Origin: Salinadaptatus halalkaliphilus
GTDB lineage: Archaea; Halobacteriota; Halobacteria; Halobacteriales; Natrialbaceae
DNA length: 64,000 nt
Direction of reading: 5' to 3'
NCBI RefSeq assembly: GCF_006543045.1
Contig: NZ_RBZW01000039.1
Span: 1 to 64,000 of the forward strand
This document shows, piece after piece, positions 38,586-41,614 of the stretch. How positions within the stretch are numbered: the stretch's first letter is position 1; every line of letters starts with the position of its first letter. The position numbers and the translations under genes were made by a program. The notes beneath the pieces are model-generated. The model saw only the letters and a list, made by a program, of their open reading frames with translations. It was not told the DNA's origin and ran no database searches.

Positions 38586-39248
38586 TCAACCACCGATCTC
38601 ACGAATCGTCTCGGAACCGCGGTCGACGTAGCCGCCGTGGAAACAGACGACGTGGTCGATCTCGAGGGCGGCGAGTCGATCGACGGACTCGAGCGCCTGG
38701 TCCATCTCGGGAGTGAACTCGGGTTTCGGCCCCGAGAGCGGCTCGTCGCCGTCGGCCACGAGCGCGTCGCCGGCGATCAGCAGGTTGCCCGCAGGGACGG
38801 ACAGCGAGACGTGGCCGGGCGTGTGACCTGGTGTTTCGACGACCTCGAGCGGGCCGGCCGCCGTCGCCACGCGAGCGCCATCAGTGAGCTCGAGGTCGAC
38901 GGCGACCGTGTCGTACTGGCCGCCCTTGAGCGGCTCGCGCTCGCCGGTGATGTAGGGGGCTTCCTCGGGATGGGCCGCGACGATGGCGTCGGTGTGGGCG
39001 AGCAATTCGGCGAGTCCGCCCACGTGGTCGCCGTCGTGGTGGGTACATAGCACCAACCAGATATCGGCGAGGTCGTAGCCGAGGCCCCGGACGTGTGTTC
39101 GGAGTGAGTCGACGATCCCAGCCGGACCCACGTCGATCAACACGAGTCCGCCACCCGTCTCGACGACCGTGGGGGTGATCGTGATCTCGCGGCCGCCGTA
39201 GTCGATCGTCATCGGTAGCGTGTGCACGCCAGCGTCGTCATCCGACAT
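38586..39248 (-). CDS. Metallo-beta-lactamase fold hydrolase
   Basis: A 220-residue MBL-fold protein. The metal motif is 'LCTHHDGDHVGG' (HxHxDH with a Thr before), the next His is in 'VVETPGHTPGHVSLSVP', the bridging Asp in 'LLIAGDALVADG' and the last His in 'VVCFHGGYV'. It resembles glyoxalase II-like or quorum-type small hydrolases, and the substrate is unknown. The ATG was chosen by the conserved N-terminal strand. A fragment duplicating residues about 13-31 lies just upstream (39330-39374). Confidence 0.9.
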   Translation of the reverse strand: MSDDDAGVHTLPMTIDYGGREITITPTVVETGGGLVLIDVGPAGIVDSLRTHVRGLGYDLADIWLVLCTHHDGDHVGGLAELLAHTDAIVAAHPEEAPYITGEREPLKGGQYDTVAVDLELTDGARVATAAGPLEVVETPGHTPGHVSLSVPAGNLLIAGDALVADGDEPLSGPKPEFTPEMDQALESVDRLAALEIDHVVCFHGGYVDRGSETIREIGG

Positions 39249-39329
39249 AGCGCTTCGTTCGGGCGGGACGAAGAAAGGTTTGGCTGGTCGCTCCGACCGA
39301 CAGCATCGATCACCGTCGACGCCACGTGG

Positions 39330-39374
39330 GTTGGGGTAATCGTGATCTCGCGGCCGCCGTAGTCGATCGTCACT
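39330..39374 (-). pseudogene. Remnant duplicate of the MBL gene N-terminus
   Basis: On the minus strand these 45 bases read 'VTIDYGGREITITPT', identical to residues about 14-28 of the MBL protein (38586-39248) with two or three base changes. The match breaks after about 15 codons, and nothing else of a second MBL gene is found. It is probably the scar of a tandem duplication followed by deletion. Confidence 0.75.
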
Positions 39375-39403
39375 CACAATTACTGGCTATTTTCAACACT
39401 ACC

Positions 39404-39433
39404 CTAACTGTTTCATGTTAGATTTAAAATAAT
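39404..39433 (+). promoter_or_regulatory. Inverted repeat and TATA box of the terpene-synthase-like gene
   Basis: CTAAC-N8-GTTAG (39404-39421) directly precedes the AT-rich TATA element TTTAAAATAATAAT (39423-39436), which lies about 20-32 bases before the GTG start at 39455. The mRNA is probably leaderless and the inverted repeat could be an operator. Confidence 0.55.
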
Positions 39434-39454: not shown

Positions 39455-40447
39455 GTGACCCACCAAATCGAACCCCCCGTTCCGGACACCGACGATCCAG
39501 TGGCAGCGGTTCGAAACGCCGCGCTTCCGGAATCGGTCGGCCCGTTGCTCGAGGCCTACGAGGCGGTCCTCGGCGGTCGAGATCCGTATCTCTGGAAGTG
39601 GCTCGCCCACCTCTTCCCGACGTTTACCCTTTCGACCGTCGAGGATCGACGCCGGCCACAGGTCCAGGAGGCAAAGTTCCTCGCGTCGCTGTTCGTCACT
39701 GTCGCCGACGACCTGGCGGAGAAACACGGCGATCGATCCACGTTCGAGGAAGCCGGGAAAATTCCGTTCGACCGGTACGCCGTCGATGTCGAACGGGACG
39801 GCGTCGACACCGATGTCGTTCGATACCTCGAGGATGTCTGGGCGGCGTTTACCGACGCGATCACGGACAGTCCGCGACTGGCCGAGTTCGGCGATCTCCT
39901 GTGGTTCGACCTCCAGCAGATCGTCCAGGCGATCAGATACACCGCCATCGTCAGCGATCACCTCGAGTTCGTCTCCGAGGCCGGATTGTGGCGCCACGAC
40001 GTTCACAACATGATGATCTGTTTCTACGCCGACATCGATCTCGTCAACGCCGGTGCGATCGAACCGACGGAACTGGCGACGCTCAGGGAGATGGTCCATC
40101 GCACACAGCGAATGGGCCGCATCTGCAACTGGCTGGTTACCTGGGAACGCGAACTCAGCGAAGGCGACCCGATCTCCGGCGTCGTCGTCCGCGCACTCGA
40201 GACCGACATCGTCTCGATCGACCAGCTACGGGCACTACAACGATCTCCGACAGGCGAGACCGTCGACCCGGTCGTCGATGCCATCCGCGAGAGCGATATC
40301 GAGGATCAGTTCCTCGCACGGTGGCAACGAGAGTACGACGAGGCACAGCAACTTGCGGCCGATATCGATTCCGTCGATGCCGATGCCTATCTCGAGGCGT
40401 TCGAGGACATCCTCGTCTATCACGTCGAGAGTCGCGATTTGCTGTAG
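39455..40447 (+). CDS. Class I terpene-synthase-like protein
   Basis: A 330-residue, mostly helical protein without membrane segments. Three spaced motifs of bacterial-type class I terpene synthases can be read: an Asp-rich 'VADDLAEKHGD' with Asp85-Asp86 and Glu89 (DDxxE), the Arg180 in 'GLWRHDVHN', and 'NWLVTWERE' with Asn225, Thr229 and Glu233 (the NSE pattern N-x3-S/T-x3-E). Separations of 140 residues (Asp to Asn) and 45 (Arg to Asn) match bacterial sesquiterpene synthases. The second residue of NSE is Trp where Asp is usual. It may make or bind an isoprenoid diphosphate; product unknown. It starts with GTG 26 or so bases after a strong TATA box. Confidence 0.62.
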   Translation: MTHQIEPPVPDTDDPVAAVRNAALPESVGPLLEAYEAVLGGRDPYLWKWLAHLFPTFTLSTVEDRRRPQVQEAKFLASLFVTVADDLAEKHGDRSTFEEAGKIPFDRYAVDVERDGVDTDVVRYLEDVWAAFTDAITDSPRLAEFGDLLWFDLQQIVQAIRYTAIVSDHLEFVSEAGLWRHDVHNMMICFYADIDLVNAGAIEPTELATLREMVHRTQRMGRICNWLVTWERELSEGDPISGVVVRALETDIVSIDQLRALQRSPTGETVDPVVDAIRESDIEDQFLARWQREYDEAQQLAADIDSVDADAYLEAFEDILVYHVESRDLL

Positions 40448-40486: not shown

Positions 40487-41614
40487 TCACTCACCGACCG
40501 TCGCTCCCGGTTCGGCCGCGACACGCTCGAGACGATCGTCGAGGGCGTAGGGGCCGGCGCCGGTGATGAGCAACACCGAGGCCATCCCGAACAGCGCGAC
40601 GTGAGCGAGGACGGGATCGTCGGGTAGTGCAAAGAGCGTCAGTGTGAACATCGCGATCGCCGTCGCGGCACTCGCCCGCGTAAACAGTCCGAGGACCAGC
40701 GCGGTACCGAGCCCTGCCTCGGCCAGTCCAGCCCCCAGCACCCAGAGCTCGGGACTCACGGGGACGACCGCGGTGAGCTCGTATCGGTCGACGACGGCGA
40801 GTGCGAGCCCTGGCTGGAGCAGCTTCTGGGTCACGCCGAGAAAGATGAACGTCGCGCCGAGTCCGAGACGAACGACCGTCGGGAGATACCGTTCGGCGGG
40901 TTCGATTCGATTCTGGAACGCTCGTGAACGCGTGTGAACCGGGTCGAACCGTCTGTAGGCGGTTCCCGTCGTCCCAGCGATCCGCTGGAGGACGTGATCC
41001 GCGCTCGGCTTCCCGCTTCCGAGGACGGCAAGCGCCGCCAGACCGCCCACGAACTCGAGTTGCAACAGCAGCGTCGGCCAGATCACTACCCCGACGAGGT
41101 AGACCGCGAGCGCGAGGATGGCGACGACCCGCGTCGCGAGTCCGAACAACAGGAGAAAGCCGAGGCCGACCTGCAGCAGTCGGAGGTCGACCTCGAGGGC
41201 GGGGCTGATGAAATAGCCGCTAAAGCCGGCCCCGATCAGCGGAATGCCGAGCGAGATCCGCAACAGCCAGGGAACGTACGCGGTGTACTCCCGCATGGCA
41301 GCGCGAAACGCCGCGATATCTCGTTGCAACGGCCGAACGGAGAGATAGAGTCCGATCACTGCGAGTACGGCGACTGTGCCGGCGATCAGCGGGCCGACGA
41401 CGAACGGATCGGTGAGCGCTGTCCCGACGAATTCCCCAAGTGTGATGTCTCGTTCTTCGTCGACGACGTACTCCTCGTGGGCGCGAGCGGATGTCGCCGC
41501 CGCCACGAACAGAGCGATAGCACACACCATCCCCAGCACCGCAGGGCAGAAAAGCCCCGGAGAGCGGCCGCGGCCAACTCGAGTCACGAACCCCGCTACC
41601 ACCAGCGACCGCAA
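40487..41614 (-). CDS. DoxX-family membrane protein
   Basis: A 375-residue protein with a cleavable-looking signal ('VLGMVCAIALFVAAATSARAHEEY') and about eight further transmembrane helices. Two DoxX-like four-helix units can be read: 'LLRISLGIPLIGAGFSGYF...LLQVGLGFLLLFGLATRVVAILALA' and 'VVRLGLGATFIFLGVTQKLLQPG...LGAGLAEAGLGTALVLGLFTRASAA'. The family includes the quinol-linked thiosulfate oxidase subunit DoxD and catabolic membrane proteins; function here is not predictable. It is convergent with the terpene-synthase-like gene (40 bases apart). Confidence 0.88.
   Translation of the reverse strand: MRSLVVAGFVTRVGRGRSPGLFCPAVLGMVCAIALFVAAATSARAHEEYVVDEERDITLGEFVGTALTDPFVVGPLIAGTVAVLAVIGLYLSVRPLQRDIAAFRAAMREYTAYVPWLLRISLGIPLIGAGFSGYFISPALEVDLRLLQVGLGFLLLFGLATRVVAILALAVYLVGVVIWPTLLLQLEFVGGLAALAVLGSGKPSADHVLQRIAGTTGTAYRRFDPVHTRSRAFQNRIEPAERYLPTVVRLGLGATFIFLGVTQKLLQPGLALAVVDRYELTAVVPVSPELWVLGAGLAEAGLGTALVLGLFTRASAATAIAMFTLTLFALPDDPVLAHVALFGMASVLLITGAGPYALDDRLERVAAEPGATVGE

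Follow-up and report, generated by a model that had tools for sequence, protein, structure and literature searches.

A family of archaeal class I terpene-synthase-like proteins, encoded by about one in three haloarchaeal genomes and often beside sensory regulators

Membrane lipids, carotenoids, retinal and the tails of quinones make up most of the known isoprenoids of haloarchaea, and a gene of Salinadaptatus halalkaliphilus raises the question of whether these archaea also encode terpene synthases of class I. The gene lies within the stretch of 64,000 nucleotides analysed here (the window), and an earlier note, made from the letters of this DNA, described it as a lone gene whose product has the motif spacing, length, helix content and lack of membrane segments of the bacterial enzymes. 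The open reading frame, which begins with GTG at position 39455 and ends with a stop codon at 40445–40447, indeed has 330 codons, and the absence of membrane segments is confirmed by a best 19-residue Kyte–Doolittle mean of 0.98. The encoded protein is acidic, with 65 acidic and 28 basic residues. The sequence TTTAAAATA is located 28 bp upstream of the GTG, a position that might fit a leaderless haloarchaeal transcript, and A/T-rich stretches are likewise found upstream of the relatives at L002, L003 and L005.

No isoprenoid gene is adjacent, and the gene is a lone one within the window. A biosynthetic gene cluster around it was considered and rejected, the neighbours being the genes of a metallo-hydrolase and a DoxX-like protein (Table 1). 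Metallo-β-lactamase-fold neighbours of the same cluster are present at seven Natrialbaceae loci, their functional tie to the synthase being putative at most; the gene of the DoxX-like protein is not conserved beside relatives of the window gene.

Table 1. Positions of the features discussed in the text, given for the whole 64-kb window
Feature	Positions	Strand	Basis or remarks
Class I terpene-synthase-like gene	39455..40447	+	330 aa, GTG start
First metal-binding motif, DDLAE, residues 85–89	39707..39721	+	End of helix 64–88 in the model; conservation
NSE-type second metal-binding motif, NWLVTWERE, residues 225–233	40127..40153	+	Conservation, profile alignment
Helix-break segment, HDVHNMM, residues 181–187	39995..40015	+	Model, conservation, profile alignment
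Possible archaeal TATA box, TTTAAAATA	39423..39431	+	Sequence; would fit archaeal promoter geometry
Metallo-β-lactamase-fold hydrolase, divergent neighbour	38586..39377	-	Pfam PF00753, 4e-27
DoxX-like membrane protein, convergent neighbour	40487..41614	-	Pfam scan

The two motifs and Arg180 are located exactly as the earlier note had it, with separations of 140 and 45 residues, and both motifs bind metal in class I terpene synthases (PMC10563020). By itself, such spacing is weak evidence and is not rare: DDxx(D/E) followed 120–160 residues later by Nx3(S/T)x3E was found in 38 of 20,000 shuffles of the same protein (0.2%) and in one of 336 other haloarchaeal ORFs from the neighbourhood. These frequencies speak for a chance resemblance of some unrelated helical protein, an explanation which is nevertheless refuted by the invariance of the motifs in the family, the predicted fold and the above-cut-off Pfam matches of relatives, and which can be given next to no weight.

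It is the conservation of the motif residues within the family that makes the pair significant. The 27 members collected by a whole-protein search, without any motif pattern, show no variation at D85, D86, E89, N225, W226, W230, R232, E233, G237 or D238 and at least 90% conservation of T229. The Asn and Glu of the NSE motif are invariant, with Thr or Ser throughout, in these 27 and in 38 members likewise found without the pattern, and the triad is also present in the full-length methanogen rows. In the larger set, DDxx(D/E) or NDxx(D/E) is present in 113 of 114 members and N-x3-T-x3-E with a basic residue ahead of the Glu in all 114; 80 of these had been collected by means of the pattern NW[VLI]xTW[ERK]RE, which does not include the first motif but holds the letters of the second, so that only the remaining rows are independent for the latter. 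A fast-evolving member (L099:8208–9134) has NDLSD replacing DDxxE, with the second motif intact, and its activity is possibly altered. Outside both metal motifs, D152, D195 and D238 are invariant or nearly so across the family. Two members, L023 and L024, have ~31 additional residues inserted ~45 residues downstream of the NSE motif; as aligned in L023, Thr, Asp, Glu and Gly are abundant in this insertion.

Within the second motif, the Trp in place of Asp had been recorded correctly, but it is not the oddity for which it was taken: Trp is found in 108 of 114 members (partly selected by the pattern), and its position, the second of the motif, is no metal-ligand position, making it a hallmark of the family. 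The residue preceding the NSE Glu, Arg232 in the window protein, is Arg or Lys in all 114 members (again partly pattern-selected) and invariably Arg in the 27- and 38-member alignments collected without the motif pattern. Its place is that of a diphosphate-binding Lys in known enzymes, K226 in aristolochene synthase.

A further proposal, that Arg180 serves as a diphosphate sensor, did not hold. A sensor Arg is common in bacterial enzymes, where it is located ~46 residues before the NSE Asn together with the effector triad held by the G1/G2 break; to our knowledge it does not define the class I synthases as a whole. In the present family, Arg occupies position 180 in 43 of 114 members and, not being conserved, receives no support as a functional site; nor is there a conserved Arg at positions 179–186 in the 114 members, the place of the sensor being filled by none. 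The place of the G1/G2 break is occupied by the HDVHNMM segment, flanked in the AlphaFold2 model by helix ends at 180/182 and 186/188, with Asn185 and Met186 as its conserved residues. The C-terminal Arg-Tyr pair, usual but not defining in class I terpene synthases, has no invariant equivalent in the last part of the 38-member alignment; the window protein ends with LVYHVESRDLL.

The AlphaFold2 model, calculated from 27 alignment rows, is all helical (pLDDT 91.3, pTM 0.89), which confirms the high helix content, and the NSE motif lies within helix 204–235. It is a confident prediction of the class I isoprenoid-synthase all-alpha fold, one part of what the earlier note had asked of a structure prediction. 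The best 50 Foldseek matches in the PDB are all class I isoprenoid synthases (E about 1e-4), among them hydropyrene, 10-epi-cubebol, T-muurolol and aristolochene synthases and Sat1646. The TM-scores of the model, 0.46–0.62, are modest. Prenyltransferases are also among the matches, and the fold search does not separate them from terpene synthases; the apparent affinity to one or the other is decided by sequence, not by fold.

The comparison with the bacterial terpene synthase profile, the other computational check proposed, gave matches above the curated cut-off in relatives and one below it for the window protein itself. Against PF19086 (Terpene_syn_C_2) the latter scores 19.1 bits (E 0.0012), below the cut-off of 23.7 bits, whereas relative L012 exceeds it with 27.9 bits, residues 80–253 being aligned to profile positions 4–180, and further relatives reach up to 35.5 bits; a Natronorubrum texcoconense protein (L101) and a Haloarcula member (L131) are also above the cut-off. 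The profile matches 25 of the 27 members at E ≤ 1 (best 1.7e-7), and its above-cut-off matches occur in 29 of 194 haloarchaeal genomes, one of the 29 being accounted for by a canonical Halocatena pair. In a profile–profile comparison with 11 terpene synthases (eight bacterial, three from Halocatena), E was 5e-4, and the alignment placed DDxAE on DDxxD and NWxxTWxREL..GD on NDxxSxxKE..G. Single-protein phmmer against PDB sequences gave nothing relevant, no NCBIfam family was matched, and the best PDB sequence for the family profile was Streptomyces Stt4548 (7e4m), with E 0.19 and over the NSE stretch only.

The protein could alternatively be another class I isoprenoid enzyme, either a prenyltransferase or a lyase or diphosphatase releasing a linear alcohol or alkene. 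The metal chemistry is the same in all of these, and several of the best Foldseek TM-scores (0.61–0.62) belong to GGPP and other polyprenyl synthases. The trans-polyprenyl diphosphate synthases (PF00348), however, have two DDxxD motifs, whereas the window protein has no second DDxxD and carries N-x3-T-x3-E as its second motif; what they have in common with the window family is the class I fold, similarity at the profile level not being found (E 0.26 in the comparison with eight polyprenyl synthases, against 5e-4 with the terpene synthases). PF00348 (polyprenyl_synt) is also absent among the matches listed in the Pfam scans of the window protein and L012. An enzyme of this other kind appears improbable.

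Taken together, the predicted fold, the conservation of the metal motifs and the profile similarity support the assignment of the window gene product, a stand-alone member of its family, as a protein of the class I terpene synthase type. Most probably it is a terpene synthase that depends on Mg2+ and uses a prenyl diphosphate as substrate. In the proposed mechanism, DDxxE and N-x3-T-x3-E would bind Mg2+, and the metals together with basic residues (Arg232 and possibly Arg222) would hold the diphosphate of a C15–C25 prenyl substrate. As the host genome contains three polyprenyl synthase genes, the substrate would most likely be GGPP or FPP supplied by one of their products. Ionisation would produce a carbocation, to be cyclised or deprotonated to a terpene.

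Although the earlier note described terpene cyclases as rarely reported from haloarchaea, the family is not rare: about a third of haloarchaeal genomes encode it, and it also occurs in methanogens. When 100 related genomes, including that of the window, were searched with the protein, 29 gave matches, and the 27 full or near-full relatives have 25–65% identity. With a profile search, members were found in 121 of the 391 genomes of the class (about 31%) and in 40 of 87 genera; the distribution is patchy, and some haloarchaeal genomes carry two or three members. Relatives with a genus name come, among others, from Natrinema, Natrialba, Natronorubrum, Haloarcula, Halorubrum, Halosimplex, Halorussus, Halobellus and Halogeometricum. 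Six plasmid-borne relatives are annotated as 'hypothetical protein'. Extension of the search to the phylum added genomes outside the class, several of them of methanogens, including a Methanohalobium MAG record (L154/L242). A divergent group, L235–L240, comes from phylum members with large genomes (3.1–5.8 Mb) and has N-T/A-x-x-T-W-x-R/K-E, with NTxNTWxRE instead of GNWxTTWERE; L238, the one member of this group tested, is not detected by PF19086.

A phylogenetic tree has a Natrialbaceae group as the sister of the window protein (100/99 support) and places members from other archaea outside those of haloarchaea, a topology which, with midpoint rooting, does not show a direction. Close members are present on two contigs of 30–31% GC, L176 and L177, filed as 'bacterium' and Lysobacteraceae, and because of this low GC at least the Lysobacteraceae label looks misbinned. 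Some members outside the haloarchaea (matches in genomes G613, G535 and G577) are interrupted by TAG or TAA in frame; the TAG might stand for pyrrolysine in methanogens that decode it, and the other stop-bearing members look like decayed copies.

At 57 of 119 distinct loci, at least one sensory or regulatory gene is located within 3 kb of the synthase gene. A BAT-like regulator, with PAS, GAF, BAT and HTH_10 domains, is encoded within 3 kb at 36 loci and beyond 3 kb at two, in similar amounts of near and far flanking DNA (699 and 756 kb); the corresponding near and far counts are 11 and none for a FilR1-type HTH gene, and 14 and seven for a PAS kinase gene. The loci are related by descent, and these counts are thus not independent of each other. 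The position of the BAT-like gene varies: in Halorubrum and Halobellus it lies upstream in divergent orientation, in Haloarcula upstream but in the same direction as the synthase gene, and in Halobaculum downstream, which indicates that the linkage has outlasted rearrangement. In Halorussus halophilus the last four bases of the synthase gene are shared with the HTH gene. Cytochrome P450 and FAD monooxygenase genes are near three loci each, and a pathway involving them was rejected, three being too few. In many relatives, expression or activity of the synthase would be under sensory control by the BAT-like, FilR1-type or PAS-kinase neighbours, or by fused receivers, which suggests that archaea may make terpenes in response to signals.

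Such fusions were found in several records. In archaeon SHRA6 (L137:5419–6921 and L092:7763–9277), a single ORF comprises a receiver, a HalX domain and the synthase (Response_reg 8e-17, HalX 8e-7), and in its model (pLDDT 86.8, pTM 0.70) a receiver of alternating alpha and beta elements can be told from the helices of HalX and from the synthase bundle. A receiver (3e-18) is also fused to the synthase in a Halodesulfurarchaeum MAG (L126:5521–6936), and the contig of a Haloferacaceae MAG (L149:3–1271) begins inside an apparent receiver end, in frame with the synthase; in both, the gene of a PAS-HisKA-HATPase kinase follows convergently within 24 bp. L126 and L149 form one clade of the tree, separate from L137, so the fusions arose at least twice or were lost elsewhere. 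The active-site Asp, Thr and Lys are retained in the receiver sequences of SHRA6 and L126, and the synthase is likely to be the output of a two-component system in the fusion-bearing archaea.

The same linkage to regulators at 57 of 119 loci and the receiver fusions, as well as the loss of the diphosphate-sensor Arg and the lack of biosynthetic partners beside most members, could also be explained by a non-catalytic sensor, whose fold would bind FPP or GGPP with Mg2+ and report the isoprenoid status to the accompanying regulators. All metal ligands of both motifs have been kept over a large divergence, however, which is rarely needed for simple sensing; these invariant ligands, together with the basic residue before the NSE Glu, make a non-catalytic binder less likely. 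Furthermore, the fusions place the synthase domain at the output end of the receiver, and no regulator gene accompanies the window gene or its Natrialbaceae relatives. A purely sensory role thus seems unlikely, and a catalytic terpene synthase is the preferred reading. More tentatively, the haloarchaeal–methanogen lineage may have its own class I branch, with NW..TW.RE and no sensor Arg, that is used as a signal-controlled output and in many haloarchaea is paired with regulators sensing light, redox state or metabolites; in at least two clades it would be the output of a response regulator, a histidine kinase switching terpene synthesis on or off by phosphorylation.

The archaeal family resembles the bacterial class I synthases of PF19086, such as the 1,8-cineole synthase CnsA and hydropyrene synthase, in having DDxx(D/E) on one helix and N-x3-(S/T)-x3-E about 140 residues further on, a basic residue before the last Glu, an all-alpha fold, a length of about 330 residues and a helix break in the effector region. 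It differs from them by Trp instead of Asp at the second NSE position, by the strictly kept Trp230 and Asp238 (NWxxTWxREL..GD) and by the lack of a conserved sensor Arg or RY pair; it forms a clade of its own, and the full-length match is too weak for detection with a single sequence. Haloarchaeal class I terpene synthases are also represented by the SRPBCC–terpene synthase fusions of Halocatena plasmids (L204, L256), which have the canonical ND..S..KE motif, score 161–170 bits against PF19086 and are not close relatives of the window family; the two are distinct. The Halocatena fusions (L204:6308–12007 and L256:4010–6394) carry an N-terminal SRPBCC (Polyketide_cyc2) domain and each adjoins a polyprenyl synthase gene; L204 contains two inverted copies, with transposase-like and integrase-like ORFs nearby. 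One record of the Halocatena type is filed as Actinarchaeum halophilum.

Terpene synthases in archaea have reportedly been claimed by Samusevich et al., whose enzymes may include members of the window family. Their preprint (bioRxiv 2024.01.29.577750) is cited in PMC12797696 under a title on terpenoid biosynthesis in archaea and, as far as this reference goes, archaeal enzymes of this kind have a precedent. A search for papers on archaeal terpene synthases found none in the collection searched. The haloarchaeal 'terpene clusters' of PMC8600319 are genome-mining calls and probably represent carotenoid genes.

The linkage to regulators and the receiver–synthase fusions are newly noted here for this family, and its fold and motif set bring an archaeal branch into the discussion of how class I terpene synthases originated. 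We know of no phosphorylation-controlled terpene synthase described before, and the receiver–synthase fusions with an adjoining kinase gene, if they act as proposed, would be the first. If the proposed function is true, about a third of haloarchaeal genomes, as well as methanogens, would encode terpene synthases, which would represent an overlooked archaeal chemistry.
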